The position numbers and the translations under genes are program-made. Of a DNA stretch of 64,000 bases, positions 35,756 to 48,891 are shown one piece after another (within the stretch, counting starts at the first letter, position 1; each line of letters begins with the position of its first letter). The DNA comes from Ahrensia marina (GTDB lineage Bacteria; Pseudomonadota; Alphaproteobacteria; Rhizobiales; Rhizobiaceae). The notes under the pieces are model-generated. The model searched no databases and was not told the origin of the DNA. It worked only from the letters and a program-made list of their open reading frames with translations. The stretch lies in NCBI RefSeq assembly GCF_001293565.1, contig NZ_JXMU01000011.1:62001-126000 (forward strand), written 5' to 3'.

Positions 35756-35845
35756 GGAGGGGTGGCCGAGTGGTTTAAGGCACCGGTCTTGAAAACCGGC
35801 GTGCGTGAGAGCGTACCGTGGGTTCGAATCCCACCCCCTCTGCCA
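35756..35845 (+). tRNA. tRNA-Ser (anticodon UGA)
   Basis: A complete 90-nt class II tRNA. Acceptor stem GGAGGGG pairs with CCCCTCT before discriminator G and encoded CCA. The anticodon loop CTTGAAA carries TGA at 35790-35792. A long variable arm (GTGCGTGAGAGCGTAC) and GGTTCGAATCC T arm are present. Its last 14 bases form the left attachment site of the adjacent element. Confidence 0.97.
35832..35845. repeat. attL core: 14-bp direct repeat at the tRNA-Ser 3' end
   Basis: CACCCCCTCTGCCA, the last 14 bases of tRNA-Ser, is repeated exactly at 48856-48869 beyond the integrase. Direct repeats of a tRNA 3' end on either side of an integrase-bearing segment mark the attachment core of a tyrosine-recombinase element. 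Confidence 0.9.
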
Positions 35846-35858
35846 CTTATCTTAATTA

Positions 35859-35883
35859 AGCCACTGATTTCAGTGGCTTTTTT
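35859..35883 (+). terminator. Terminator after tRNA-Ser, carried by the element
   Basis: AGCCACTG and CAGTGGCT form a perfect 8-bp stem with loop ATTT, followed by a T run to 35883. It lies inside the att repeats, so the element seems to bring its own terminator for the tRNA, while the original one appears at the other end (48892). Confidence 0.85.
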
Positions 35884-35977
35884 GTTATTTATTGTGCGGT
35901 GTCCTAATGCGTTACCGAATTCCTAAACTAAGAGTTTTATCCTAATCTCAGCAATGTTGGAGGGCTCTGCTTAGAAT

Positions 35978-36541
35978 ATGTCGATTCTAGATGATTGGAT
36001 TGAGCGCGCAGAAACTCCCAAAACACTTGGGGACTGGCCAGCATGGGAGGCTATTGCTCCTCGTGGTCGAGACGCTAAGCACGGTCCTGAAACGCGGCTC
36101 GCCTCGATGCGTTGCGAAAAATATGAGTTCGTGGTGCCATTGGCTACGGCGTCCAGCCTCTTGATCCAAGGTTTAAGGCTCCGAATGTTAGCTCCAAGTC
36201 AAAGAAAAAATGAAGATTTAGTTGCAAATTTGGAATCTCTGTATCAAGGCAAGTTTCGATGTATTGCTCGAATCGAATTCTGGCCGGAATCGCCACATTT
36301 CAATAAGCATTGGAAAAGGCTTGGAATACAAGCAAATGTGCAGGGTTCTCATGTGCATTCTACTCGGCTCAACTCAAGGCTGGGTGAAGATGCGTTTCTC
36401 CCTTTTGAGAACCTGCCTTGCGCAGAACCTATTGATGAGCCCACCTCCTTCAGAGAGGCTGTTAATAAAATTGAGACGATCTATAATATATCAGGTTTAA
36501 AAGAAATCGAGGCGCCGCCATGGAACGATCAGCTCTTTTGA
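35978..36541 (+). CDS. DUF6978-like protein
   Basis: 187 residues. The central part (FRCIARIEFWPESPHFNKHW, then SHVHSTRLNSRLGEDAFLPF) resembles the family now called DUF6978, which is found mostly in mobile elements next to DUF1828 genes. No catalytic motif is obvious, but the S-H-V-H pair could be functional. It overlaps the next gene by 22 bp, indicating co-translation. Position at the attL edge, in the opposite orientation to the phage genes, marks it as cargo. Confidence 0.6.
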   Translation: MSILDDWIERAETPKTLGDWPAWEAIAPRGRDAKHGPETRLASMRCEKYEFVVPLATASSLLIQGLRLRMLAPSQRKNEDLVANLESLYQGKFRCIARIEFWPESPHFNKHWKRLGIQANVQGSHVHSTRLNSRLGEDAFLPFENLPCAEPIDEPTSFREAVNKIETIYNISGLKEIEAPPWNDQLF

Positions 36542-37278
36542 ATAGCAGAGAAGACATCCGCTCCGTCGCTAAAGAATTAGCGAGTTCACTCGCATTCACA
36601 CAGGAGCGTGCTGGACGAGTCAGCGTTGTCACGCCGGTCATTTATCCCGGCGGGGCTAGAGTCGTGCTGACAATCGAACCTTCTCCAGGTGGGTATTTTG
36701 TCAGCGACCTAGGGTCGGCATTCAGGGAAGCTGACATAATGAATGGAGCGTCAATTTTCACTCGGATTGCTCGGCAAACAGCCGCGAAGTTTGACATACG
36801 CTTTGATTCGGAAATGTTTTTTGAGCTAGAAATCCCTGAGGATTCACTCGTTGCTGCAGCTCTCGCCGTTTCCAATGCTTCGCGACATGCTGTAGAGCAG
36901 GTCGCGGAAAGTTTGTCTGAAAAACGTGCTGATCAACAACGTGACGTGCTTTGGCAGAAGCTTGAACGAGCTTTTCGTCCCGAAAGAGTCGAAAAAGATG
37001 TCGAGTATAGAGGCGCGAGTGCTAATTGGAAGTTTGATGCTTTGGTATCATTAGATGGTGGGCGGCGAGGACTGTTTGAACTCGTTCAGCCAAGCCCAGT
37101 TTCAGTAAACTCAGCTATCAGTAAATTTCTTGACGTTTCCGATTTAGACGATCGCAACACTCAACTAAATGCAGTTGTTACTGATCGAGATAAAACTGCT
37201 CATTTGACTTTATTGGGAAGTAGAGCAAACGTTATTCCAATCAATGCAGCGACGGAGCTTTATCTGACTGCGGCTTAG
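36520..37278 (+). CDS. DUF1828-domain protein
   Basis: 252 residues. The N-terminal 95 residues fit DUF1828 (TPVIYPGGARVVLTIEPSPG, then FVSDLGSAFREADIMNGA); the C-terminal half contains EYRGASANWKFDALVSLDGG and GLFELVQPSPVSVNSAI, which recall the restriction-endonuclease-like DUF1829 fold. A D...E-x-V/Q arrangement (D173 in KFDALV, E186 in LFELVQ) would suit a PD-(D/E)XK-type site, but this is inference. Overlaps the DUF6978-like gene. Possible anti-phage or exclusion cargo. Confidence 0.6.
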   Translation: MERSALLNSREDIRSVAKELASSLAFTQERAGRVSVVTPVIYPGGARVVLTIEPSPGGYFVSDLGSAFREADIMNGASIFTRIARQTAAKFDIRFDSEMFFELEIPEDSLVAAALAVSNASRHAVEQVAESLSEKRADQQRDVLWQKLERAFRPERVEKDVEYRGASANWKFDALVSLDGGRRGLFELVQPSPVSVNSAISKFLDVSDLDDRNTQLNAVVTDRDKTAHLTLLGSRANVIPINAATELYLTAA

Positions 37279-37720
37279 TTTTTTGTCTGACAATTAGTTA
37301 TCTGTAAAATAATAGATGCAGATATTTAACAATCCCAAGCAATTGGTCGAGGGTTTCGACCTCAACTTGTCGCTCAATGCCGACAAACGACAAGGACAAA
37401 GTCCACTGCCCTGTCCGAGGCGGTTTTTTGAATAACCCGAGCAAGGCACTGATTGCCATAATTATGCATCGATCATAGTGTGGTATCCGGTCGGCCGATG
37501 ATAAAACTTTCTCTGATAACCGGATTGAACGCCATAGCTGGCGACGAGTCGGGGCTTGGGTGGCATTCGTAATCTCCTTAACTGTCGAATCCACCTGATA
37601 GGAAGTTATTCTCTATGGCTGGATTTCGTCAATTGCGAAGTTCGAGTTTCATTTTCTATTTGACGCGCTTGAAGAGCCAGCGCACACTCCGGCAGAAGTT
37701 CTTTATCGAAGGGAATGAAC
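37279..37720. other. Mostly non-coding stretch in the element
   Basis: A minus-strand frame at 37298-37594 could encode 98 residues (GQWTLSLSFVGIERQVEVET followed by LDQLLGI near its C-terminus). It has no clear ribosome site or recognised family, so I do not call it as a gene. The rest shows no strong structure. It separates the cargo pair from the minus-strand phage genes. Confidence 0.35.
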
Positions 37721-37840
37721 ATGTCCGGCTACGATAAAAATAAGGACTACGGCGGCCCTGCCCCGACATGGTGGGGATCAGCTTTGCTGATACTGGCGAT
37801 CGTGGGCTCTGCAGCGCTGGCGCTGATGTATACGCACTAG
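37721..37840 (+). CDS. 39-residue single-span membrane protein
   Basis: Polar N-terminus (SGYDKNKDYGGPAPTWW) followed by one hydrophobic helix (about 18-36; ALLILAIVGSAALALMY). GAAGGG lies seven bases before the ATG at 37721, an ideal spacing. It reads towards and ends 9 bp short of the nuclease gene. Too short to assign a family. It could be a holin-like, toxin or small regulatory membrane peptide. Confidence 0.55.
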   Translation: MSGYDKNKDYGGPAPTWWGSALLILAIVGSAALALMYTH

Positions 37841-37848
37841 CGCGATAA

Positions 37849-38268
37849 TCAATTGCCGCACCACACCCGCGGCGGGTGCGGCCAGCGAACAGCCAGACGC
37901 TCTGCCAACAACACGTCGCCGGCCATCCGCCCATTGCGCAGCTTTATGCTAACGAGGTCGCGGTTCATACCACCCTTCTCGCCGTGCCAAATGATTGAAT
38001 AACCACCTGACATCAATTGCTGCAGGCGCGCCGTTGCTCGGGCTGCAATCGCGGGCTCTCTCGCGCACTCGGCATGACCGGCATACTCGGGCGTATCCCA
38101 GCCCTTGGCGCGCCATTTGACGCCATTTTGCCAGCCGGTATCACCGTCCACCAAGCAAGTAACCTTGCGGGCTGCGCGATTGCCGCCTTCGCAGAGCGGA
38201 ATCGCAAACGCTGACGACATGACCAAAGTTGGAACAAAGAAAAGAAGAGCAAGAATCAGTTTTTTCAT
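37849..38268 (-). CDS. Secreted micrococcal-nuclease-like protein
   Basis: 139 residues. Signal peptide MKKLILALLFFVPTLVMSS with cleavage near SAFA, then a thermonuclease-like fold: CLVDGDTGW, RAKGWDTPEYAG, A-R-A-T-A-R-L and MNRDLVSIKLRNGRMAGDVL. The catalytic Arg/Glu/Arg set is only partly recognisable, so activity is uncertain. ATG at 38268 overlaps the stop of the SH3 gene as TGATG. Export suggests action in the periplasm or outside. Confidence 0.72.
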   Translation of the reverse strand: MKKLILALLFFVPTLVMSSAFAIPLCEGGNRAARKVTCLVDGDTGWQNGVKWRAKGWDTPEYAGHAECAREPAIAARATARLQQLMSGGYSIIWHGEKGGMNRDLVSIKLRNGRMAGDVLLAERLAVRWPHPPRVWCGN

Positions 38269-38900
38269 CAATTGAAACATATCGGCGATCGGCCGCCTGG
38301 TCGAGACCAAGCACTCCGCCCTCCACAGCGTGCGCCGTTACGCATTCTATCGTACGGGCAATCGCAAGAGCCTGTCCTCGGACTCCTTACGGGTGTACCT
38401 GCCCCACTTCGCGCCACCTTTGCCTTGGGCCTTGGTGTAGAAATAAGGGATTGTGGTTTGGGTACGCCGAGGGCTCGTTCAGTAAGATAATCACCGTGAA
38501 CCCATGCGTTTCGAAAGTTTGAAGGCATTTGAATTTGTCGCCACGCTCCATCGCGTGATGCAACAAGGATCCGCGTTCCCGCCGCAAGTTTACCAACAAT
38601 TTTTGAATCTGTGGTTGGCCTGCTTCTCACATTCAAAGTTGTTGTAACCGACAACGATTGAGAGGGCTCAACCGATACTTTAGGCACTGGCACAGACCGC
38701 TTGGTATCCGGCGTAGGCGCCTGTCTATTTGGTATGGATTTTGGAACTGGATAGCTGACCGTTTCCTGAATCTGTGGGGCTTGCGTAACAGGCGCTCTGT
38801 TTGCTGGCGATTCAGTCGCATCATCACCGTCGCCAATTAAGTAGCCGACTATAAGTGCGCCGATCACAAACCAGCCTGTTTTGCTGCTCGCTTTGCCCAT
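38268..38900 (-). CDS. Membrane-anchored SH3-domain protein with Cys-rich tail
   Basis: 210 residues. One N-terminal transmembrane helix (about 9-23), a proline-rich linker, a bacterial SH3 domain (about 86-142; TLNVRSRPTTDSKIVGKL ... WVHGDYL) and a tail CDCPYDRMRNGARCGGRSAW followed by SRPGG. This tail is often found on or beside secreted SNase-like nucleases. It is coupled to the nuclease gene by TGATG, so the two probably act together at the cell surface. Confidence 0.78.
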   Translation of the reverse strand: MGKASSKTGWFVIGALIVGYLIGDGDDATESPANRAPVTQAPQIQETVSYPVPKSIPNRQAPTPDTKRSVPVPKVSVEPSQSLSVTTTLNVRSRPTTDSKIVGKLAAGTRILVASRDGAWRQIQMPSNFRNAWVHGDYLTERALGVPKPQSLISTPRPKAKVARSGAGTPVRSPRTGSCDCPYDRMRNGARCGGRSAWSRPGGRSPICFN

Positions 38901-38983
38901 ATAGCCATCCCCCGCAGAAAGCTAACACGGAAGCTGATTAGCACAATAGGCTATTTAATTTCGATGCCACATGGATGAAGTCG

Positions 38984-39472
38984 TCAGGTTATTTGGATAT
39001 TCTTTGCTATGAGACCGTTGGCGATCGCTCTGGCGGCAAAGTGCGATCTGTTGCGCAGTTGGCGCTCTGTTATGCACTGAAAGCGTGCGACACACTTGAC
39101 AGGCATTTCCTTTGCTTTGGCAAGCGAGCGGGCGCACAGCGCCCTCGCCTCGGCACTGTAACCGCGCAGGAATTGGATTGGCCATGCCAAGACAATTTCC
39201 ATTTGAGCTATTTCGGCGGGTGTTGGGCGCGGTCGATAGATGATGCGCTTCTCGGGCTGCTCACTGTCAACCTGCGCCACAAGGTCTTCAAAAGTCGCCG
39301 CATATTCAGGCCACGCATTGGCGTGTCCGCGAGGTCCTGTGCGCTCGCGTGGTAGCGCGAGCAGTGTCATGTAGGCTTCGATCATCAGACGTTCGACGTG
39401 TTCTGGCGTCCACTCTGGCGGCGTGTAGACCTCGTCAAGATCGTCCCGAAAGGGATGCGCGGGAAAGCCCAT
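38984..39472 (-). CDS. Phage-type hypothetical protein (DUF6362-like)
   Basis: 162 residues, with W-T-P-E-H-V-E-R-L-M near the start and a possible helix-turn-helix in the C-terminal third (VKCVARFQCITERQLRNRS). The pattern recalls DUF6362 proteins of alphaproteobacterial prophages. A strong GGAGG site precedes the ATG. Role unknown. Confidence 0.55.
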   Translation of the reverse strand: MGFPAHPFRDDLDEVYTPPEWTPEHVERLMIEAYMTLLALPRERTGPRGHANAWPEYAATFEDLVAQVDSEQPEKRIIYRPRPTPAEIAQMEIVLAWPIQFLRGYSAEARALCARSLAKAKEMPVKCVARFQCITERQLRNRSHFAARAIANGLIAKNIQIT

Positions 39473-39494
39473 TTATTGTCCTCCAAGAACTTGT

Positions 39495-39854
39495 TTAGTC
39501 GATCATGTCATTCAGCGCCGAGACAACGATCGCTTCCATCAATTTGATTTCGCGCGCATCTTCATCACCGTCTGGCACAAAGAAGGCGAAAGCAGCCGCC
39601 TTGGCTTTAATCTGCTTCGTTTCTTGCGATTTAGCGGGGATACGCGCCATGAGTCCGCATAAATCGTATAAATCATCTGAGATGGTTTTGATCCTTGCCC
39701 AGCGGTCTTTGGTGCTGTTTTTGAAGGCTTTGTCTGTCGCCTTGTCCATTTTTTTGCTCAACCGCTCGAAGTCACGACCATAACTTTTGAGTAACAGCTC
39801 GCTCGTGGTGTTCGATTTCGGCTGGGCGGCAGTTCGTGGGTTTTCGATCAACAT
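39495..39854 (-). CDS. Phage-type hypothetical protein
   Basis: 119 residues, mostly helical and charged (LLLKSYGRDFERLSKKMDKA). Family not recognised. Start placed at 39854, where GGAA lies six bases upstream, rather than 39875. Lies between the DUF6362-like gene and the decoration-protein gene, where a lambda-like phage would have its major capsid gene. It is far too short to be a capsid protein. Confidence 0.6.
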   Translation of the reverse strand: MLIENPRTAAQPKSNTTSELLLKSYGRDFERLSKKMDKATDKAFKNSTKDRWARIKTISDDLYDLCGLMARIPAKSQETKQIKAKAAAFAFFVPDGDEDAREIKLMEAIVVSALNDMID

Positions 39855-40074
39855 TTTGGTTTCCTTACATTGCATATTGATGATGAGAACATGCTGCCAA
39901 GTGTCTGAAAAACAGTCAATTTACGGGATTTGCTAATATTTCACGGCTGGGCTGTGCGGATATTGTTGCAAATGCTGGATTGACTGGCATTGGCCTTAAT
40001 AAATGATGCTAATCTTAAATTAGCGAACCTTGCTAACCGAAACGGCTGGCAAGACTCGCTGATTCTGTATGCAG

Positions 40075-40446
40075 CTATCTCGGAATGATCCCGATGTTTA
40101 TTAGCTGTAGCTGCGCGGTCGTTTTTAGTTCGTCAGTGGTGAAGCCAGCGCCGAATATTAGCACTGGCTTCTTGACCTCTGCGTCACGCACCAGCGCGAC
40201 CGCTTTTGCAGAATTCACGCTTGCGTCAGTTCGGTATAGAAGAACAGCAGCCGCAACCTCACTGCCGTCTACTGCGTCCGGGTCGGCGGGCACATATTCT
40301 TTGGAACTGCTGACTTGTCCGAGAACAGTTCCAGCATCTAAGTCACCTGCCCCAGCGGCGATTGTGATTGTGTCACGCGAGCGATAGCCGTTGGCCTCAG
40401 AGAGAACAACTTCAAGGTCGCGAGCGCGTTCAGTCATTGTAGACAT
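40075..40446 (-). CDS. Head decoration protein (lambda gpD-like)
   Basis: 123 residues matching the head-decoration family: SEANGYRSRDTITIAAGAGD near the start, then DLDAGTVLGQV and VAAAVLLYRTDAS and the C-terminal L-x-L-I-N-I-G-I-I-P-R. Trimers of such proteins cement the expanded capsid at its three-fold sites. GGAA lies seven bases before the ATG. The scaffold-like gene is directly upstream, as Nu3 and D are in lambda, but no major capsid gene follows. Confidence 0.82.
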   Translation of the reverse strand: MSTMTERARDLEVVLSEANGYRSRDTITIAAGAGDLDAGTVLGQVSSSKEYVPADPDAVDGSEVAAAVLLYRTDASVNSAKAVALVRDAEVKKPVLIFGAGFTTDELKTTAQLQLINIGIIPR

Positions 40447-40464
40447 GGGAGTTTCCTTTATCTT

Positions 40465-40911
40465 TTATCGCTGCCCGTCGAACGGTTCGGCCTTCGCCTT
40501 TCTTCGGCTTGCAAACACTTCTGAGGCATTCGGCAATGTGTTGGCTGTTTCAGACGCTTGAGACTGCTGTCCGCTTGATAACAGCTCACCCAGCGCGTCT
40601 GTGCCATTGAGACGATTTTGCAGGCTGGCGGGATTGTTCGCCGGTGCTTCTGCGTTGCCGGTCTTGAGAGCAAATTCGATCACCTTGTCCGCCGACATAT
40701 CAGGCGCGTCAGCTGCAAGCGTTAGCGCTGCTTTGAAGGCAGACGCATTTTCAGCCAGCTTGTTGGAGTTGGCGATCGATAGGATGCGGGCGCGTTCGGC
40801 ATTGGCACCCACTTTTTGACCGTCAGCATGACTGGCGGCGATCGCATCGTCTGCGTCTGCCTTCATGGCGACTTGGCCGCCGGCATCGGAAGAATAGAAA
40901 TAATCTAGCAT
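40465..40911 (-). CDS. Nu3-like scaffold (C-terminal part of a phage S49 protease-scaffold)
   Basis: 148 residues. GANAERARILSIANSNKLAE and the following A-L-T-L-A-A-D-A-P-D-M-S segment match the scaffold portion at the end of phage S49 prohead proteases. The protease domain with its Ser-Lys dyad is absent. AGGA six bases before the ATG shows independent translation, as for lambda Nu3, which starts inside gene C. Here the upstream protease sequence is simply not present. Confidence 0.72.
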   Translation of the reverse strand: MLDYFYSSDAGGQVAMKADADDAIAASHADGQKVGANAERARILSIANSNKLAENASAFKAALTLAADAPDMSADKVIEFALKTGNAEAPANNPASLQNRLNGTDALGELLSSGQQSQASETANTLPNASEVFASRRKAKAEPFDGQR

Positions 40912-40982
40912 TTTAAAGTCCTTCTCAGTTGGTTTTCTTGGAGGGGGAATCAGGCACGCTGCGCTCGGCTACAATCTCATCA

Positions 40983-41234
40983 TCAGACATACGGGTTCAC
41001 GACTTGTTCAAGAATTTCTATGATTGAATCGTCGGTCTTAGGTAAAGCAACGTGCAGTTCACGTGCTAACTTGGACAGATATTCGTCCAGCGCGAGCAGC
41101 GATGCTATAATGTTTGCTTCTTCCTGTTTTGGCGAAGTATCTGATGCTGGGAGCAGTTCTGAATAGAGCTGCGCAGTGTTTTCGAGGTTATTCTTTAAAA
41201 GAATAATGCTCTCGTTTATAGATTTCGAGCTCAT
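40983..41234 (-). CDS. Small helical phage protein
   Basis: 83 residues, helical and acidic (SKSINESIILLKNNLENTAQ at the start, then EANIIASLLALDEYLSKLAR). Start at 41234 has GGAG nine bases upstream; the longer frame from 41276 would overlap the tape measure gene. No family recognised. Confidence 0.6.
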   Translation of the reverse strand: MSSKSINESIILLKNNLENTAQLYSELLPASDTSPKQEEANIIASLLALDEYLSKLARELHVALPKTDDSIIEILEQVVNPYV

Positions 41235-41260
41235 TGGTTTTATCTCCATTTTGCGCTTTT

Positions 41261-43726
41261 TTAAGCAACACTCCATTCTTGGTCGAATTGACCGCCTGCC
41301 AGCGCATCAGCCTGCATCTCACCAAGCTTTTGATTAATGCGTTCTGCCAGCGCCTCAGCGCTTTCGCCGGGCTGTTGGTAGATGGCGATCGTCACACCGC
41401 CCATATTGACCACAGCTCCACCGCCGGCCATTTTCGCTGTATTGGCAGCGTTGTGGACATAACCGTTTTTATTAGCAGTAATCAGTTCAGGGCCGCGCTC
41501 ACCGGTCAGGTATGTGCTGCCGCGGTAAATTGGCCCGCCGCTCGCGCGTGCGCCTGCAATCCCGCTCTGCGGGCCGCGAACAGTTACACCGGGCAACGAA
41601 CGCATTCCCTGCGCAGCTTTGGATAATTTCAAATTAAAAGAATCAAGGCTCGAGCTGTCGATATTCGGCCTAACCGACAGTTCGTTGAAAGACCGGATTT
41701 GATCTTCTAATTGAGCGGCTTTTTGCTGCAAAGGACGCACAAGGTTTTCGGCGTGTTCTGGCAGTTTTGATGTCTCTCGAATCTGCTGAATTTTGGCATA
41801 CACCGCATCAAGCTCTGATTTCATATTATCAACAGCTGCCTGATCTTCAGGCGTGTAATACTTGCCGCCTATAACACCGCCCAGCGCATCGGCGCCTTCG
41901 CCGGCTTTCGATCCAAGCCATGCACCAGCGCCAGCCGCACCCGCCCAACGCAGCAACCAGCCATATTTTGCCAACCCCGCAAACGGACCGCCGCGCGCAG
42001 CACCTTTTCCCGCACCGCCGGTTGCAACGCCGCCGCCTGCAACGGCAGCACCGCCACCCAATGCCTGCAATACTCTCAGGCCACCCTTCAAGATACTGAA
42101 CGCCGCAGATACACCGGTGATGAAGGCTAAGCCTCGCCCCAGTTTCATCAAAGCCGATGCCATGATTGACACACCAAGAGCCGAAGCCGTTAGCGTAAGT
42201 CCATAACCGCCAAGCTGTCCGAGCGACTCGGCGACACTTCCTGGTTTCAGTCCAATAAAACGTTCTGCTTTTGCAGTGAACTCACCAGCAGCCTCTCCAA
42301 AATTTTTCAGAGTATCTCCGAAAGTCTGAAAGTCCGCCGCAATGGCAGACAAGCTTGTTTGCTTCTCACGGCGGAACATTTCCGAAATCCAGATATCGCC
42401 GGTGTCAGGCACATCCTTGCCAAACACGAAGTCATGGAGTGATTTTAGACCGCTATTGAGCGCGTCAACGCCAGCCGCCGCATCATCAAAGCCTAAGCCC
42501 GCAGCAAAGCCGTCCATGCCGGCACCGATCTTGTCAAACAGTGTCGTACGATCGCTCAATGTGGCGAGTGTGTTAACAATTTTGTCTGAAAACGCGACAA
42601 TCGGCGGCAGCAATTTAGAGCCAAACATTGCGCCGATATTGGATATATTGTTGCCGAGAACTTTGAGCTTTTGCTCTGTGGTATTGGCGAACAACTCAAA
42701 GGTTTTGTTGACCGAACCTGCCGCGTTTTTGGCATCGGATAGCTTATCCAAACGGCCAACAATCGTATCTATGTTCTCCGTAATTGCAGCCGCATCGTCG
42801 CCATATTCAAGGCCAAACATGTCGAGGAAAAGACCGGCGCGGGATTCCGCATCCATCTTTTTCGCCATCTTAAACAGGTCTTTCATGGCCTCGACAGGCG
42901 TGTCGTAGAATTTCTTTTGGAGTTTGAGCGAGTATCCCTTGCCGCCGACCTTATCGAGCGCCTCACGTGCTTTCTTGTTTTTAGAGATCGTGCCCATTTT
43001 GGTCATCATGGCATTCATGCCGGTACCGGCCTTAGACGATTCAATACCGATCTCGTTCAAGCTCGCACCAAAGGCAGCAAGTTGATCGGCCGTCACGCCG
43101 AATGTTTTGCCCGTCGCCGCAGTGCGGATGAGAAAATCAATGACTTTTTGTTCGGATGTTCCCGCGCTGTCGGCCGTATAGTTGATTGTATCGGCAAGGC
43201 CGCGCAACTGCGCCATATCAAGCCCGAACGCGTTCTTGAGCTGCGACAAGCTGTTTGCGGTGTCTTCTGGCATCATATCGAAGGCGACCGCTGCCTTGGC
43301 ACCGAGCAATGCAAACTCTTCGAGGTCTTTGTTGGCAATGCCGAACTGAGCTGCTTGAGCAACCAGCGTTGCGATCTCGGTACGTGCCAGTGGCATCGAG
43401 TTGGACAGCTCTGTAATCCGGCGTTCCATCACACCCAGCTCACGTGCGCTGAGTGTCGATTTCTTAGCAACGTCAGCCATTGCGGTTTCGAACTTCATTG
43501 CATTGCGGATTGAACCGCCAATGCCGACACCGACGCCGATATATCCCGCACCAAGTAGCGCGAGATTCCTGATTTGACTACCAACCATTGCGCCCGTCGC
43601 GGCCTGCGATCGGGCAAAGCCTGATGATTGCCGGCGCAACGACCCCAACGAACGGCCAATCCCACGCGCTTTAGCACTAACTCCGTCCCGCATCGAGAGC
43701 ACTAATTCTGATCTCAAGCTTGCCAT
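41261..43726 (-). CDS. Phage tail tape measure protein
   Basis: 821 residues. The tape-measure core (about 75-330: FETAMADVAKKSTLSARELG, FGIANKDLEEFALLGAKAAV, TADSAGTSEQKVIDFLIRTA, IGIESSKAGTGMNAMMTKMG) fixes tail length in siphophages and contractile phages. A hydrophobic Gly/Ala-rich region follows (about 500-600), and a C-terminal GERGPELI segment is common at the end of these proteins. AGAGGA precedes the ATG. No tail tube, chaperone or baseplate genes accompany it. Confidence 0.92.
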   Translation of the reverse strand: MASLRSELVLSMRDGVSAKARGIGRSLGSLRRQSSGFARSQAATGAMVGSQIRNLALLGAGYIGVGVGIGGSIRNAMKFETAMADVAKKSTLSARELGVMERRITELSNSMPLARTEIATLVAQAAQFGIANKDLEEFALLGAKAAVAFDMMPEDTANSLSQLKNAFGLDMAQLRGLADTINYTADSAGTSEQKVIDFLIRTAATGKTFGVTADQLAAFGASLNEIGIESSKAGTGMNAMMTKMGTISKNKKAREALDKVGGKGYSLKLQKKFYDTPVEAMKDLFKMAKKMDAESRAGLFLDMFGLEYGDDAAAITENIDTIVGRLDKLSDAKNAAGSVNKTFELFANTTEQKLKVLGNNISNIGAMFGSKLLPPIVAFSDKIVNTLATLSDRTTLFDKIGAGMDGFAAGLGFDDAAAGVDALNSGLKSLHDFVFGKDVPDTGDIWISEMFRREKQTSLSAIAADFQTFGDTLKNFGEAAGEFTAKAERFIGLKPGSVAESLGQLGGYGLTLTASALGVSIMASALMKLGRGLAFITGVSAAFSILKGGLRVLQALGGGAAVAGGGVATGGAGKGAARGGPFAGLAKYGWLLRWAGAAGAGAWLGSKAGEGADALGGVIGGKYYTPEDQAAVDNMKSELDAVYAKIQQIRETSKLPEHAENLVRPLQQKAAQLEDQIRSFNELSVRPNIDSSSLDSFNLKLSKAAQGMRSLPGVTVRGPQSGIAGARASGGPIYRGSTYLTGERGPELITANKNGYVHNAANTAKMAGGGAVVNMGGVTIAIYQQPGESAEALAERINQKLGEMQADALAGGQFDQEWSVA

Positions 43727-43996
43727 TTAATGGTCCTCTTCAAGAAAATGTGAATCTGGGTGCGACGCGGACATTTTCATTTTTCGCTATGTCGCACTTT
43801 TTGATTCAAAATCCTTATTTTACTCAGTATCTGGTCTGAAAATCGGGACCGGACTCGCAAAAACCCAAATCTGAAAAACACGCGATATTCGGGCCGCAGC
43901 GCCCCCGCGTCTCTTCCTTTTTGCTCAAAAGGGACCCAGCCGGGGGGTGGGCAGGCAGCTGGAGACTTCCAAGAACAGCCGCCTGCCCGCTGCGCG
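43727..43996. other. Non-coding GC-rich region of the element, with inverted repeats
   Basis: Between the tape measure and coiled-coil genes. It contains GTGCGAC ... GTCGCAC (43760-43766 and 43791-43797), a dyad GGTC-TGAAAATCGG-GACC (43833-43850) similar to the iteron-like units at 45852-45945, and GC-rich runs around 43880-43960. An 85-codon minus-strand frame here looks spurious. The region could be a packaging (cos) site or control region; this is inference. Confidence 0.4.
43760..43797. repeat. 7-bp inverted repeat
   Basis: GTGCGAC and GTCGCAC are perfect complements 24 bases apart, immediately upstream of the tape measure gene. It could be an operator or an RNA hairpin in the late transcript. 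Confidence 0.5.
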
Positions 43997-45010
43997 TCAG
44001 GACGTTGGAGTAAGTTCGCGCGCATTTGATTCATCCAGTGCTATGTCTGCCGGGCTGCGGCCGTCGTCGTGGATGATCTCCACGCCCAGCAGTGCTTCGA
44101 TGCTAACCTCCGGTCGGTGTTCAAATTGATTTGGATTATTTTGAATCAATTCGCATTCGACGCGTTCGAGCTTAAGTCGCTCTTCTGCGAGAGCTGTCAG
44201 CTTCGCTTCACGCTCGGCCGGATCCAGTGCGTTTTCATCGTCAGCCAGCTCATTTATCTCGGCTTCGATCTTTGCGATCATCGCATCTTTATGAAGCCAG
44301 GCCATTTGGCATGTCCTAAGGTCCGCGCCCACGAGGCTCAACTCATCAGCCGCACCAAGAAAGCTGAATTTGAAGGGCTCGCCTGTATCAATGCAGTGCA
44401 GCATATCTGGGGCGCCTGCCGCCGCCATGCGTTCAATCTTTGCTCGGGACGCTTGCTTAGCCATTGAAGCCGGATATGGTGCGCTTTGAACTTGATGCAT
44501 ATCTGCCGTGAGCTCTGCGATCTGCTGTCTTAGTTTTGAGATGTCGCTGCCCTTGGGCAAATCAACATTGCACGGCTGCAAGAAATCATCCCGATCGATC
44601 TTTTTCAGCCAGTTTAAAGCCCGGTCAGCAAGGGCTGCGATTTTTTGAAACTGATCTTCTTTTGAGTGAACTTTCTTTTGAAGTTCTGCGATTTCATCAT
44701 CCAGATTCGCAATTTCTTGACGAATTGCCGCGATTTTTTTGACATTAGACCCGAGCTGGAATTGATTGTAATTATCATCTTCAAGCTGTCCGATTTGGGG
44801 AACAAGAGCGTCGCGTTCTTTTGCAAGCACTTTGAGCTTATCCATTGCAACCATTACGACTGCATGGGCTGCCTCGCGCGCTTCGAACAAAGATTCAAGA
44901 ATTAATTCAGCGTTCGCTGGCAGTTCAATGCCAAGAGCTTTCGAAATTTTGCTCGAGTTTTTAATTCTTTGTGCGTCACTAGCGAATGTAGTTACGATGG
45001 ACTTTGACAT
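43997..45010 (-). CDS. Coiled-coil phage-type protein of unknown function
   Basis: 337 residues. Two long heptad-rich coiled coils (about 55-125 with KLKVLAKERDALVPQIGQLE and IAALRQEIANLDDEIAEL-like repeats, and 250-305) flank a small globular centre (DMLHCIDTGEPFKFSFLG). ATG at 45010 has GGAG six bases upstream, so the longer frame to 45067 is rejected. No family recognised. Confidence 0.7.
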   Translation of the reverse strand: MSKSIVTTFASDAQRIKNSSKISKALGIELPANAELILESLFEAREAAHAVVMVAMDKLKVLAKERDALVPQIGQLEDDNYNQFQLGSNVKKIAAIRQEIANLDDEIAELQKKVHSKEDQFQKIAALADRALNWLKKIDRDDFLQPCNVDLPKGSDISKLRQQIAELTADMHQVQSAPYPASMAKQASRAKIERMAAAGAPDMLHCIDTGEPFKFSFLGAADELSLVGADLRTCQMAWLHKDAMIAKIEAEINELADDENALDPAEREAKLTALAEERLKLERVECELIQNNPNQFEHRPEVSIEALLGVEIIHDDGRSPADIALDESNARELTPTS

Positions 45011-45073
45011 TTGAGGCTCCTTAGTCCAGCCAGCATCCACAGAAGCTTTTGAACTTAAAAGGCCCATCTAATT

Positions 45074-45496
45074 TCAGAGAACATTCAATATCTGACGGGT
45101 TGTAAGCCCGGCGTCGCGTGCCTTGAGTACGAGCCAACAGAGTTCATCTTTACGGTTTGTGTGTCGGCATGTTTGATCGGTTCGCGTCCGTGGCCATACT
45201 GTTGAGCGGTATCGATCCAAGAGCTGGCTTATTTCTTCGGCTGCTTTGTTTGTTGTGCGATTGCCGAAGACTTCTTTGCGCAGCGCTCGGATAAGTTCGT
45301 TGCGATTATTCAAGGCGACACTAAGTGCCAACGAGTTTTCGCCGCGTTTAGTAAGATAGCCAATTTCGCGACCAAACGGTTCAACGTTACCCAGCAGCGC
45401 TGATTCCGCGAGATTTGCGAGCCGATCACCATTTGGATGCATGCGCAATGAATCTCTTATCAGGCGCAAGTTTGCTATTGATGGCTGTACTGTCAC
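45074..45496 (-). CDS. Phage-type hypothetical protein
   Basis: 140 residues, basic and helical, ending in a helix-turn-helix-like segment (LVLKARDAGLTTRQILNVL). It starts with GTG overlapping the stop of the upstream gene as GTGA, so the two are coupled. No family recognised. A regulatory or DNA-binding role is possible. Confidence 0.6.
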   Translation of the reverse strand: MTVQPSIANLRLIRDSLRMHPNGDRLANLAESALLGNVEPFGREIGYLTKRGENSLALSVALNNRNELIRALRKEVFGNRTTNKAAEEISQLLDRYRSTVWPRTRTDQTCRHTNRKDELCWLVLKARDAGLTTRQILNVL

Positions 45497-45774
45497 TTGC
45501 GCAGCATCCCGCGCGCTTCGATCAAAGCAATCTCGCGCTCAACAGCCTCACGAAACTCGTCAAGAGAAGCACGCGCTGCAAATTCACTAATTCCAACATT
45601 TGTTTGAGCCGCTACATAGTCGTCAGCAATTCTGTACCAGTAGCTACGACGTTGTTTGGCCGTCTTGCTTAGATAGAGCTTTGCGACTTGGCGGGCCTTG
45701 CCTGTGCGGCGGCCGCCTGGAAACGGAATCACCTTTGCAGTTGGTCGCCAGTTGAAGAGTGGGAGATCGGTCAT
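45493..45774 (-). CDS. DUF6074-like small phage protein
   Basis: 93 residues. The pattern LFNWRPTAKVIPFPGGRRTG followed by K-A-R-Q-V-A and RRSYWYRIADDYVAA is typical of a small family (DUF6074) common in rhizobial prophages and integrative elements. Function unknown. Confidence 0.65.
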   Translation of the reverse strand: MTDLPLFNWRPTAKVIPFPGGRRTGKARQVAKLYLSKTAKQRRSYWYRIADDYVAAQTNVGISEFAARASLDEFREAVEREIALIEARGMLRK

Positions 45775-45829
45775 CGCAGACCCCCATCGTATGGTATAGA
45801 TAAAGATAACCTAGAAATCAGGACGGTTT

Positions 45830-46432
45830 TCATCGCACACCCCCATCATTCGTCCCTGTTTTCTGGACAGGCCATCCTAGTTTTCGGGATAGGGATTCCA
45901 ATTCCGTCCCAGTTTTAGGGATGGGACCGTCCTTGTTTTCGGGATGGGATATTTTTTTACCGTTGCGTCCATTCGGGTTGTTTGGATTTGCTTTGACGAT
46001 GTTGTAATCATTGTTTTCCGACCAGTGTAGGTACAGCTTTCGGGGCTGCAACGGCCGACCAGCGTTGTCTTTGCCAGGCATTGCCAGTTCAGTAATTTCA
46101 TACTCTGGCGACTTTCCCTCGCCATCGATACCAAGCCTTCCTGGTTCTTTCACGACTATGAACCCCTTGGCCTGAAGGCACTGAAAGGCTTTGGCCGTTG
46201 TATCGGTCGACCCTACTCCCATTGCTTCAGCAGCTTGGCGGACGCTGAGTTTAATTTTGCCGTTATTATTGTGCTCAGTACCGCGCCACTGGAATTTTAT
46301 CCAAGGATAAAGAGCCTGCGCGCTGGAACTCAAAGCTCGCCAAGCCGGTGTCTCGCAGGTTGGCCTCAGAACCTTAGTGTAGTGTTCGTAACCCTTTTCA
46401 TTTGCTCTGTGCTTCTGGGCTCGTTTACTCAT
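45830..46432 (-). CDS. Winged-helix phage protein, possible replication initiator
   Basis: 200 residues. A winged-helix-like domain (about 25-110; SVRQAAEAMGVGSTDTTAKA then FQCLQAKGFIVVKE) is followed by a low-complexity tail. The tail is encoded by DNA holding four 17-bp repeats. ATG at 46432 overlaps the stop of the upstream gene by 8 bp; the 46501 start is rejected. Initiator genes of lambda O type also contain their own origin repeats, which suggests replication initiation, but no homology proves it. Confidence 0.62.
   Translation of the reverse strand: MSKRAQKHRANEKGYEHYTKVLRPTCETPAWRALSSSAQALYPWIKFQWRGTEHNNNGKIKLSVRQAAEAMGVGSTDTTAKAFQCLQAKGFIVVKEPGRLGIDGEGKSPEYEITELAMPGKDNAGRPLQPRKLYLHWSENNDYNIVKANPNNPNGRNGKKISHPENKDGPIPKTGTELESLSRKLGWPVQKTGTNDGGVR
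45852..45945. repeat. Four 17-bp iteron-like repeats inside the winged-helix gene
   Basis: Units start at 45852 (GTCCCTGTTTTCTGGAC), 45874 (ATCCTAGTTTTCGGGAT), 45906 (GTCCCAGTTTTAGGGAT) and 45929 (GTCCTTGTTTTCGGGAT). All lie in the same orientation, each a weak dyad, with start-to-start distances of 22, 32 and 23 bp, near two, three and two helical turns. They fall in all three codon phases of the host gene, so it is the DNA, not the peptide, that is conserved. An AT-rich run follows at 45949-45960. Confidence 0.8.
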
Positions 46433-46613
46433 ACCCGGCCTCCGCGCGCGCTTCACGCGCCGCGACGATTGCTTCGCAGCTTTCCCGCGGTGAGAGCCCA
46501 AAATTCTCTTTCAGTAGGCTGATTATCGATCGTTCGTCTCGATCGGCCAGCTTTCGGCGCTGGTGGAGATAATCAAGTATCTGGGCGCGGTCTGGGTGAT
46601 CGAACGTTGCCAT
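46425..46613 (-). CDS. Small phage-type protein
   Basis: 62 residues (ATFDHPDRAQILDYLHQRRK, then SIISLLKENFGLSPRESCEA), a short helical protein. Start at 46613 overlaps the AlpA-like gene's stop (TAATG), and its stop overlaps the winged-helix gene. It may assist regulation or replication. Family not recognised. Confidence 0.65.
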   Translation of the reverse strand: MATFDHPDRAQILDYLHQRRKLADRDERSIISLLKENFGLSPRESCEAIVAAREARAEAGYE

Positions 46614-46813
46614 TACGCGGCCTCCCCGTCGCGGGACGCGATACGCGCGTTGATCCAAGCATCGATTTCCGATGCAACGAATGTAACGCGCTTTTGACCG
46701 AGAATTACTGCTTTAGGAAAATCGCCCGCAGATCGATGGCGATTGATTGCGGTTCGACTTAGCGATGTGCGCGCGCATACATCTTTTATACTGATGAGTT
46801 TTGGCTGGTCCAT
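46613..46813 (-). CDS. AlpA-like excisionase/regulator
   Basis: 66 residues: a MerR/Xis-type winged helix starting ISIKDVCARTSLSRTAINRH and ending in SEIDAWINARIA, the AlpA pattern. Such proteins direct integrase towards excision or activate satellite and P4-type genes. GGAG precedes the ATG. First gene of the early operon. Confidence 0.85.
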   Translation of the reverse strand: MDQPKLISIKDVCARTSLSRTAINRHRSAGDFPKAVILGQKRVTFVASEIDAWINARIASRDGEAA

Positions 46814-46913
46814 TTTGCCACTCCGTTTTTGTTGAACGTGGTGGCAACTTGCAAAATCCAGTGCTGGGTGTGCTATTGTGGAAACGTGTTTTCGTCTACC
46901 AATTTTGACATGT

Positions 46914-47468
46914 TTATCTCGGCGGTGAGTTCTTTAAGAATTCGTCTTTCCAACGCCGCGCCACACTGCTGAATCGATCAGCACTAAGCATCGCAATGTC
47001 CAATTTCAGGAAAACGGGATCGACCAATGTCGCTGTCCATAAATAATCTTTATTCGTGTCGGCGGGATAAACGGCTCCGTCTTGATGGGCGCCATAAGCA
47101 GAATTGAACCGAATTTGCCAAATAGAAACGATGAATTCGGCTTCCATTTGTTTGCAACTCACCCATCGCTGCGAAGTCGATACCTTGATCGCGTCTTTTA
47201 GCTGTGCCGCCGTTTCCGTACTGTATTCTGTTTCGCCCCTTGCACTCAATTGAGCAAGAGCAGTTTGAGCTGCTTTCAGGGTATCTGTTCGCTTCTTTTT
47301 AAAAGTGCTAAATTTGCGCTCATTTCCAAATTGCGAATTTTCAATCCAACTGTAAAGAAATCGTCGTGCGAAGTGATTCAAGACGTTTTCCAAATGATCG
47401 CTGAAATCACCTGCAAATAGTGGCCTTGCTTCGGCGATGACTTTGGCATCGTAAGAATACTCAACCAT
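46914..47468 (-). CDS. Hypothetical protein coupled to integrase
   Basis: 184 residues, no signal peptide or membrane segment, rich in aromatic residues (FSDHLENVLNHFARRFLYSW; SQRWVSCKQMEAEFIVSIWQ). Overlaps the 3' end of the integrase gene by 8 bp. No family recognised; position suggests a role linked to integration or superinfection control, but this is inference. Confidence 0.6.
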   Translation of the reverse strand: MVEYSYDAKVIAEARPLFAGDFSDHLENVLNHFARRFLYSWIENSQFGNERKFSTFKKKRTDTLKAAQTALAQLSARGETEYSTETAAQLKDAIKVSTSQRWVSCKQMEAEFIVSIWQIRFNSAYGAHQDGAVYPADTNKDYLWTATLVDPVFLKLDIAMLSADRFSSVARRWKDEFLKNSPPR

Positions 47469-48687
47469 GTAGCTTTACCACGCCGTCGACAGCAGGATTG
47501 AGATATGCCGCCCACGCTTCCATTAGTTTGCGCCGCTTATTGAGCGCTGTGTCTCGTCGATAAGCCAATTCGGTCTTGTCGCCAAAAACGTGTGCAAGGC
47601 TCATTTCTATAATGTCGCGCGGCTGACTGGTTTCATTTCCTGCCCAATCTCTAAATGCCGACCTAAAGCCGTGGACTGTGAAATCTGGTTCTAAGGTCTT
47701 GAGCAATTTAAGCATCGTCATATTGCTCACGGGCTTTCGGGGGTCTCGCCCTGGAAATACCCAATTCGACAGTTGCCGGTCCGCCATAAAACGAAAAACT
47801 TGAACGGCATCCGCCGTTAATGGGATCACATGCTCTCGCTCCGCCTTCATTTTGATGGCTGGGATCGTCCACGTCGCATTTTCAAAATCAACATCTGACC
47901 ATTCAGCGCCGATTGTTTCGTTGGTGCGTGTTGCGCAGAGGATTGTAAGCTCAAGCGCTTTGGCTGCCATGCTATCGTTGATGCGAAGGCGTTCGACAAG
48001 CGCTGGCACTGCAGCGTAAGGCATTGCCGCAAAATGCTCTACTTTGTCTGTGCGCTTACCCAGCAGATGATCGAGATGCCCCTTCAGACGTGCCGGATTG
48101 TCTCCAAAACGGAGCTTGAGGGCCGTTGCATAGTCTAGCGTCTTTTCGATGCGGCCGCGCACGCGGTTCGCAGTCTCTCCTTTTTCGCGCCATATTGGTT
48201 TCAGTACGCTTACGATATGGTCTGTGTCGACTTCGCCGATCGGCATCTTGAGCAAAGGCTTGGCATACGTCTCTACGCTAGTGCGCCACTGGATAGCATG
48301 CTTCGGGTTCTTGAATGTTGGCAGCAGTGTTTCATGAACTGCGATGAGACAGTCGCCAAAACTACGTTGCGGCACGGCCGCTTTGCGGTATGCCATTTCC
48401 TTGCGTGGGTCGCCGCCGTGCTTGAGAATATCGCGAGCCTCGTCTGCGCGTGCCCGCGCCTCTTTTAGCGACAGCTTGCCTGCAACATTGCCGAATGCGC
48501 CAAAGCCCATTTCATGCCGGCGGCCGTTCCGGATCCATATAAATACCCAGCTCTTATTATGAGGAGCACCCGGATTCTTTGATCTCGAAGGTTTGACATG
48601 CAGCCAAAGGCCGTCACCGTCGCCATACTTGCCCGGTTCAAGGCTCGCGCTGTTCAGCTGCGTTACGGTGAGTTTATGCCTGCTCAA
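47461..48687 (-). CDS. P4-type tyrosine recombinase integrase
   Basis: 408 residues. An N-terminal arm-binding DUF4102 domain (YGDGDGLWLHVKPS) is followed by a core-binding domain and the catalytic domain with R254 (TRTNE), H339-x-x-R342 (HGFRSAF), H366 (AHVFG) and nucleophile Y376. It recombines the 14-bp core in tRNA-Ser. The start at 48687 is a TTG with no clear ribosome site, so the N-terminus is uncertain. It sits at the end distal to the tRNA. Confidence 0.93.
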   Translation of the reverse strand: MSRHKLTVTQLNSASLEPGKYGDGDGLWLHVKPSRSKNPGAPHNKSWVFIWIRNGRRHEMGFGAFGNVAGKLSLKEARARADEARDILKHGGDPRKEMAYRKAAVPQRSFGDCLIAVHETLLPTFKNPKHAIQWRTSVETYAKPLLKMPIGEVDTDHIVSVLKPIWREKGETANRVRGRIEKTLDYATALKLRFGDNPARLKGHLDHLLGKRTDKVEHFAAMPYAAVPALVERLRINDSMAAKALELTILCATRTNETIGAEWSDVDFENATWTIPAIKMKAEREHVIPLTADAVQVFRFMADRQLSNWVFPGRDPRKPVSNMTMLKLLKTLEPDFTVHGFRSAFRDWAGNETSQPRDIIEMSLAHVFGDKTELAYRRDTALNKRRKLMEAWAAYLNPAVDGVVKLHG

Positions 48688-48855
48688 AAAAGTCTCTGCC
48701 TAACTCGCGTTGCGATCTGGTTCCTAATGCGACACCCCATATTGAGGCGTTGCAGCATGGACGCAGTGTGGCGAAGTGTGCAAAAAATGCAACTATTTTG
48801 ATGATTTAGGGCGCTTTTTGGTCAACATGGACAGCAAGTTTATGGCAGACGGTGA

Positions 48856-48869
48856 CACCCCCTCTGCCA
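48856..48869. repeat. attR core: second copy of the 14-bp direct repeat
   Basis: Exact copy of the tRNA-Ser 3' end CACCCCCTCTGCCA. Flanking bases differ from those at the tRNA, so the shared core is 14 bp. Confidence 0.9.
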
Positions 48870-48891
48870 TTTTATGGCGAACCAAAATTAA

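Follow-up and report, generated by a model that had tools for sequence, protein, structure and literature searches.

The subject here is a window of 64,000 nucleotides from Ahrensia marina (contig NZ_JXMU01000011.1, positions 62,001 to 126,000), part of a draft genome of 3.44 Mb. From 35,849 to 48,872 of this window lies an element of 13,024 bp, inserted at the 3' end of a tRNA-Ser(UGA) gene, which carries genes for a tail tape measure protein (TMP), a stand-alone capsid scaffold-like protein, and a gpD-like head decoration protein. I propose, as the probable reading, that the element is a helper-dependent satellite, belonging to a family centred on Hyphomicrobiales, that swaps its own scaffold, gpD, and TMP into the particles of a helper phage, where the helper, the induction, and the packaging are what I infer. 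Possession of its own head-shaping and tail-length parts may let the element build hybrid particles. The features on which the argument turns are these (window coordinates; profile scores are E-values):

35756-35845: tRNA-Ser(UGA) gene
35832..35848, plus strand: attL repeat, 17 nt at the 3' end of tRNA-Ser(UGA), 16 of 17 identical to 48856-48872
40075..40446, minus strand: gpD-like head decoration protein (PF02924, 1.3e-33, whole model)
40465..40911, minus strand: stand-alone capsid scaffold-like protein, 148 amino acids (aa), without a protease domain (S49 C-terminus profile, 3.5e-6)
41261..43726, minus strand: TMP, 821 aa (PF10145, 3e-32; phrog_28, 1.8e-53, residues 24-808; TIGR01760, 2.4e-49)
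43997..45067, minus strand: coiled-coil protein, 356 aa, the family marker (16-row alignment)
46613..46813, minus strand: AlpA-type regulator/excisionase (PF05930, 3.9e-12; phrog_66, 6.8e-11)
47461..48687, minus strand: tyrosine integrase, 408 aa (PF00589, 1.6e-13; PF22022, 1.1e-22; PF13356, 6.9e-14)
48856..48872, plus strand: attR repeat; the DNA from here on abuts tRNA-Ser in a genome of the same genus (G777)

The scaffold-like, gpD-like, and TMP open reading frames (ORFs) are all intact and lie on the minus strand, just where an earlier sequence-only reading of this DNA had placed them, and family evidence bears out its names for them. The gpD is 50% identical over 89% to that of Aurantimonas phage AmM-1. 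The same reading had these three as the only genes kept from a phage late region. Its stretch, 38984-43726, also contains three further genes (38984-39472, encoding a DUF6362 protein, 39495-39875, and 40983-41276).

The scaffold requires the most argument. Neither Pfam (E<=1) nor NCBIfam (E<=0.01) places the protein in a family, PHROGs gives a single chance-level match (0.083), and tblastn against 50,697 phage records gives none. The scans found no protease domain in it. When 6,110 ORFs were searched with a profile of 60 distinct S49-type protease C-termini, the protein matched with an E-value of 3.5e-6 (25.7 bits), and hhalign aligns that profile with it over residues 31-108 (88%, E 2.8e-6). 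Below it follow a Roseibium protein from the relative L050 (0.0011) and then an ORF without known relationship (0.0073); the match of L088 is weak (1.1). The same profile matches the stand-alone scaffolds of the related elements in genome G238 at 2e-16 to 6e-15, and these are matched as well by a profile of ClpP-type head-protease C-termini (2e-9 to 7e-7). Single-sequence comparison of the window scaffold with its sister scaffolds is no more than suggestive (E of about 0.06; hhalign with a satellite-only profile 6.6%). A ClpP-type origin for the window scaffold was considered and is unsupported, while an S49-type origin is supported; the earlier description of a stand-alone Nu3-like scaffold survives in the latter form. 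Only 18 bp separate the gene from gpD, which follows it. Among loci from IMG/VR, a gpD homologue lies no more than 400 bp after the protease gene in 59 of 74 ClpP-type cases and 63 of 79 S49-type cases. Because of the profile match and the gpD neighbor, as in those protease loci, I conclude that 40465-40911 probably encodes a scaffold domain without its protease, with a putative role in assembly.

In G777, tRNA-Ser is followed directly by sequence that matches the window from 48856 (65 bp, 90.8%), and because this junction is uninterrupted, the 13,024 bp between the repeats can be taken as an insertion. The G777 site is uninterrupted at the tRNA, yet it is not identical further on, other DNA appearing a little downstream: in this locus (L116, G777:C1:640500-658000) about 2.2 kb extra separates the sequence downstream of tRNA-Ser from DNA matching the right flank of the window, and part of the junction sequence occurs a second time. 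Among the three genomes of the genus searched, only that of the window has the coiled-coil gene.

Family scans covering 18 element ORFs gave, apart from the weak TerS match mentioned below, no match to portal, terminase, capsid, tube, sheath, or baseplate families, and it is because no such gene was found that the element looks likely, from its gene content, to be a helper-dependent satellite. Queries for lambda/AmM-1-type TerL and portal and for P2-type baseplate, sheath, tube, U, and D proteins found nothing in the window element or in any of the 17 related stretches described below, though each detected 2 to 7 control ORFs, its own included. P2-type chaperone and hub queries and the family scans likewise found no match in the window element (PLE's own proteins were not among the queries), and no lysis gene was recognized among the ORFs scanned. 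The DNA-binding part of the AlpA protein has a weak match to TerS (phrog_57, 0.0026). Ten element genes were also compared with a defence library, and a single weak match resulted.

How might such an element spread? The proposed course begins with a temperate helper with a lambda-type head (protease/scaffold, gpD, gpE) and a P2-like contractile tail, resembling AmM-1, that would induce the element and supply terminase, portal, capsid, tube, sheath, and baseplate. The protease-less scaffold would compete with the helper's protease-scaffold, biasing assembly to particles fit for a 13-kb genome, and the satellite's gpD would stabilize the resulting heads. Its TMP would displace that of the helper, giving a chimeric tail, for which the PLE satellites of Vibrio cholerae (PLE, PICI-like element, after the phage-inducible chromosomal islands or PICIs) provide a precedent. 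The coiled-coil protein is a candidate for an assembly-redirecting factor of the element itself. That a satellite could turn scaffold, gpD, and TMP to altering its helper's head and tail was the suggestion of the sequence-only reading, and I infer the same use.

The element has relatives, recognizable by the coiled-coil protein. Of 397 genomes from the order, 11 were picked out by a four-row profile of this marker, at 16 places; a 16-row profile found it in 5 of 385 genomes of a sample of the class, the window's own counted and one unconfirmed on inspection. As judged by these matches, the family lies mostly in Hyphomicrobiales. One IMG/VR contig (L069) also carries the gene. Three scans with single members found no new confirmed element (the L069 contig was refound), and of the genome contig scans, that with the TMP as query yielded no relative and that with the coiled-coil protein one. 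The window's coiled-coil protein has no tblastn match in the 50,697 phage records; since family members are just 19-30% identical to it, a divergent phage copy could be missed.

Eighteen element stretches, that of the window included, were read after removal of short or unconfirmed places: G171 (31-aa match), G403 (3.4-kb contig, coiled-coil confirmed), G761/L108 (unconfirmed), L109 and L110 (short match, L109 not confirmed), and L118 (same contig as L069). L050 and L089 end at contig edges, and borders are approximate for L055, L069, L090, L092, L093, L105, and L107. An integrase is present in 17 of the 18, the exception, L050, running into its contig edge, and an AlpA-type gene in 11 (iterated profile). 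At eight of the 11 tRNA-adjacent loci, 15 to 55 bp from the 3' end of the tRNA gene are repeated across the element, giving sizes of 7.1-14.9 kb; no such repeat was found for L050 or L092, and L069 has just a 12-nt internal match. Genome G238 alone holds five copies.

The late genes carried by these elements vary. A TMP is encoded in nine (window, L050, L055, L056, L087, L069, L090, L091, L105) and a stand-alone scaffold in six (window, L055, L056, L086, L087, and, borderline at 0.0011, L050), the scaffold-like gene of L088 (E=1.1) being left out of the count. An S49 or ClpP head protease is found in L050, L090, and L092, so that eight stretches have scaffold or protease, six of them together with a TMP. 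A TerS-like gene occurs in seven (local profile), that of L055 confirmed against PHROGs (1.2e-23), a gpE capsid gene in L069 and L093, and TerL in L096 (phrog_2, 3e-25). The five copies in G238 illustrate the variety: scaffold, TerS, and TMP occur together in three, while of the two without a TMP one has the scaffold and the other TerS. These counts are lower bounds, because local profiles missed the divergent TMPs of L091 and L105, and the relatives' ORFs were scanned only in part against Pfam and PHROGs. Do the late genes then differ at random among relatives, the outcome that the sequence-only reading had named as telling against it? The sets do differ, and gpD is confined to the window, but 15 of the 18 stretches carry at least one late gene, six combine a TMP with scaffold or protease, and the TMPs of one genome are under purifying selection. 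No stretch showed a complete head or tail set.

Two loci show how the cargo is arranged elsewhere. L069, beside tRNA-Ser(UGA), has at 10505-17102 genes for gpE capsid, TerS, DUF6362, tail chaperone, TMP, and a tail-fibre-like protein; a lambda-type portal and TerL were not found in it. G387 has two elements with differing head genes beside the coiled-coil gene, gpE capsid in L093 (8600-10601) and Clp protease in L092 (9272-11159).

Single head and packaging genes scattered in this way (gpE in L069 and L093, TerL in L096, proteases in L050, L090, and L092) are what one would expect if the family descended from a capsid-forming PICI that once had the full capsid and packaging set and has lost most of it. 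I consider this very unlikely. A lambda-type portal, the only kind of portal searched for, was found in none of the 18 stretches, each stretch holds at most a fraction of the set, and the TMPs come from several families and stand in several places.

A different form of decay deserves consideration, that the element is simply what remains of a lambda/P2-like prophage, its late genes lost save for scaffold, gpD, and TMP as passengers. All three genes have phage homologues, gpD is in no other stretch, and late-gene sets differ among relatives, all as decay would have it. The order of the genes points the other way. In prophage L059 protease and gpD come before the TMP (gpD 16380, protease 16777, TMP 8521, all minus), and in a Roseibium prophage portal and capsid do; in the window the TMP stands first, then scaffold and gpD. 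The earlier notion that the genes were kept from a phage late region is thus doubtful, as the TMP follows in the phages looked at. Furthermore, the window's ORFs are intact, and related elements repeat the plan of integrase and coiled-coil gene with other single late genes.

In a TMP tree of 32 rows, which is without the TMPs of L069, L090, L091, and L105 and in which the satellite label was assigned by the analyst, satellite TMPs require at least three label changes on starred branches. The window TMP is sister (100/100) to one in genome G206 whose neighbors, in a P2-like tail cluster, include genes for sheath, tube, and chaperone; the TMP of the Roseibium satellite is sister to one in G135, and the G238 copies group with two others. 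Three label changes would most simply be three captures. Ratios of nonsynonymous to synonymous substitution (dN/dS) between the G238 copies are 0.12-0.15 for TMP, 0.07-0.35 for TerS, 0.15-0.37 for scaffold, and 0.19-0.44 for the coiled-coil gene, so the G238 TMPs are under purifying selection. Simple decay is unlikely because satellite TMPs occupy at least three places in the tree and the genes are arranged otherwise than in a phage late operon. It is on gene order, recurrence in the family, and selection that a prophage remnant, which I regard as quite unlikely, was dropped as first choice.

Selection bears also on another idea: that the proteins serve as decoys, protecting the host by poisoning the assembly of heads and tails when phages invade, rather than entering particles that are transferred. 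A protease-less scaffold could well be dominant negative, and tail assembly is described as blocked by the PICI-borne Tai and by Rta of PLE. However, Rta is a protein of 80 aa and no TMP, whereas the TMPs of PLE, by the available account, enter virions and are needed for efficient transduction (PMC12987554), and a full-length TMP under purifying selection suits assembly better than poisoning. An anti-phage role in place of transfer seems unlikely, though the anti-phage and particle-assembly outcomes can coexist.

If the element is a satellite, where is its helper? AmM-1, the model for it, has the gene order terminase, portal, Clp protease, gpD, capsid, and then baseplate genes. In Roseibium aggregatum IAM 12614 a family element resides together with a prophage that has genes for TerL, portal, gpE capsid, and baseplate as well as a TMP of 788 aa that is 39.5% identical over 759 aa to that of the satellite. 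It is plausible from these genes that the two are a satellite and its helper. Beyond those of the element, the window genome has neither a PF02924 gpD nor a TMP of PF10145 type.

Several observations weigh against the satellite proposal. The window genome is also without a gpE capsid or a PF05136 portal and, having no other gpD besides, has no such helper in residence. TerS was not recognized in the window element, and DUF6362 in that role is a guess. The combination of scaffold, gpD, and TMP is unique to the window, gpD being found in it alone among the 18 stretches; nine stretches have no TMP that could be seen and three (L094, L095, L107) no detected late gene at all, where searches can miss divergent proteins. 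The profile of 68 ClpP-type C-termini misses the window scaffold, and a merged profile of 132 rows gives it only 0.0049. A tree with three label changes is unable to separate gain from loss, and the dN/dS values come from the G238 copies, not from the window genes. Finally, AlphaFold gave a model of the coiled-coil protein too poor for fold searches (3 rows, pLDDT, the predicted local confidence score, of 54.7), because of which its role is a guess from position.

PLE, in which the TMP has been put to work, is among the known satellites close to the proposed one. According to the portions of the reports available, PLE satellites encode a TMP and a tail assembly chaperone (TAC), and PLE11 has a baseplate hub in addition. 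In PLE11 virions its own TMP takes the place of the phage's and the tails are about 10 nm shorter; for three PLEs, transduction fell by 96 to 99.9% on deletion of tmp (PMC12987554). No satellite family before PLE, it was reported in 2026, was known to place its own TMP in chimeric tails (PMC12987554), which are contractile. Like the window element it has a scaffold of its own, TcaP, which scaffolds small capsids (PMC10945586). But TcaP, and Sid of P4 as well, are external scaffolds (PMC10945586), so these precedents differ in kind from the scaffold of the window. PLE appears to be set apart, by description and not by gene comparison, through its TAC, its baseplate hub, and TcaP; the window element has a scaffold of the protease-C-terminus type, a gpD, and a host of a different class.

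Other known satellites, within the accessible text of the reports cited, share different parts of the plan. The 224 putative RepA_N satellites of E. coli (2023) encode capsid, decoration protein, putative TMP, and a baseplate hub component, without alpA or terminase (PMC10448857). Compared by description, they resemble the window element in lying next to a tRNA, in having a tyrosine integrase and a decoration protein, and in having a TMP without most tail genes; they differ in having a major capsid protein and hub but no alpA, where the window element has scaffold and AlpA but no capsid gene (PMC10448857). Gram-negative PICIs such as EcCICFT073 are of 12-15 kb with int, AlpA, a replication module, and an incomplete virion set (PMC6092414). 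With its tRNA-Ser repeats, its 13,024 bp, its integrase, and a regulator of AlpA/MerR type, the window element looks much the same, but PICIs are defined as having no phage structural genes (PMC6092414), and it has scaffold, decoration, and TMP. Capsid-forming PICIs did capture head genes, and some have a predicted tmp (PMC10690885, PMC12409344, PMC12987554), but their set includes capsid, portal, protease, connectors, and terminases (PMC10690885, PMC12409344), and these were not found in the window element. P4 shares a scaffold of its own, Sid, which redirects the helper capsid externally (PMC10690885, PMC10945586), but no window ORF scanned matches the Sid or Psu families. AH14b of Pseudomonas has an integrase and an AlpA-like regulator, besides a primase and a tail-assembly homologue; in the text available no AH14b-encoded protein was found in virions, and scaffold, gpD, and TMP are not reported (PMC4936722).

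No satellite with scaffold, gpD, and TMP together, or any such satellite in Hyphomicrobiales, was found in the literature searched, to which subscription journals mostly did not belong. To this extent the sequence-only reading was right to call the combination undescribed, but its single parts have precedents in the accessible accounts (PMC12987554, PMC10945586, PMC10448857). There is an open chance that the coiled-coil family constitutes a new satellite group. A broader idea, which I put forward tentatively and would not call the likelier outcome, is that the conserved, helical coiled-coil protein marks a satellite family not described before, with its centre in the Alphaproteobacteria. Such a family would mobilize itself by swapping late genes captured one at a time (scaffold, protease, decoration, capsid, TerS, TerL, TMP) into helper particles, making both head and tail chimeric, and its TMPs would have been captured repeatedly and independently of PLE. 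If true, repeated uptake of TMPs along with a stand-alone scaffold, in an unrelated family from another bacterial class, would mean that replacing head and tail parts together is a general strategy of satellites. The family also offers natural replicates, with several copies in one genome and varied late genes beside the same coiled-coil gene.

The remaining genes of the element are these:

35978..37278, plus strand: two accessory genes at the tRNA end, the second with weak matches to phrog_1960 and PDC-M24B
37849..38900, minus strand: secreted ORF like staphylococcal nuclease (by eye) and SH3 protein, accessory (PF08239, 1.2e-10, for 38268-38900)
38984..39472, minus strand: DUF6362/phrog_6836 protein, with a distant relative behind TerS in L069 (8e-4)
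39495..39875, minus strand: 126-aa protein (general family scans only)
40983..41276, minus strand: 97-aa protein overlapping the TMP end (general family scans only)
45074..45496, minus strand: 140-aa protein upstream of the coiled-coil gene, with a relative at the same place in L089
45493..45774, minus strand: DUF6074 protein, 93 aa (PF19551, 6.1e-14)
45830..46501, minus strand: putative replication initiator (Rep), 223 aa, with internal repeats and a weak match to the phrog_186 DnaD-like helicase loader (0.014)
45850..45949, no strand: four iteron-like repeats of about 22 nt, a candidate origin, inside the 3' part of rep
46914..47468, minus strand: 184-aa protein after int, without family match

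Read from the right, the order is integrase, 184-aa protein, AlpA, a 77-aa ORF, putative Rep, DUF6074, 140-aa protein, coiled-coil, TMP, 97-aa protein, scaffold, gpD, 126-aa protein, DUF6362, the SH3 and nuclease-like genes, and the two plus-strand genes. The PHROG match of the SH3 protein to 'amidase' is restricted to its SH3 part.

The putative rep has no primase match, its DnaD-like match is weak, and a profile search detects no homologue in the other 17 stretches. Repeats of 22-24 nt lie in or beside the putative rep of the window (45850-45949), L089 (7879-8048), and L069 (8281-8385), which suggests an origin within the rep gene. The three genes were paired by position and by eye, the window profile missing the other two.

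The DUF6362 protein might be a packaging or late-regulation factor. It has no tblastn match in the 50,697 phage records, and its AlphaFold model (2 rows, pLDDT 45.5) is too poor for fold searches. The relative in L069 (12461-12934) lies directly behind TerS.

In genome G108, contig C5 has near-identical pairs of integrase and TMP genes, in opposite orientation and at both contig ends (L048, 1973-5696, and L049, 14264-18026). These are without the coiled-coil gene and are possibly another TMP-bearing element.

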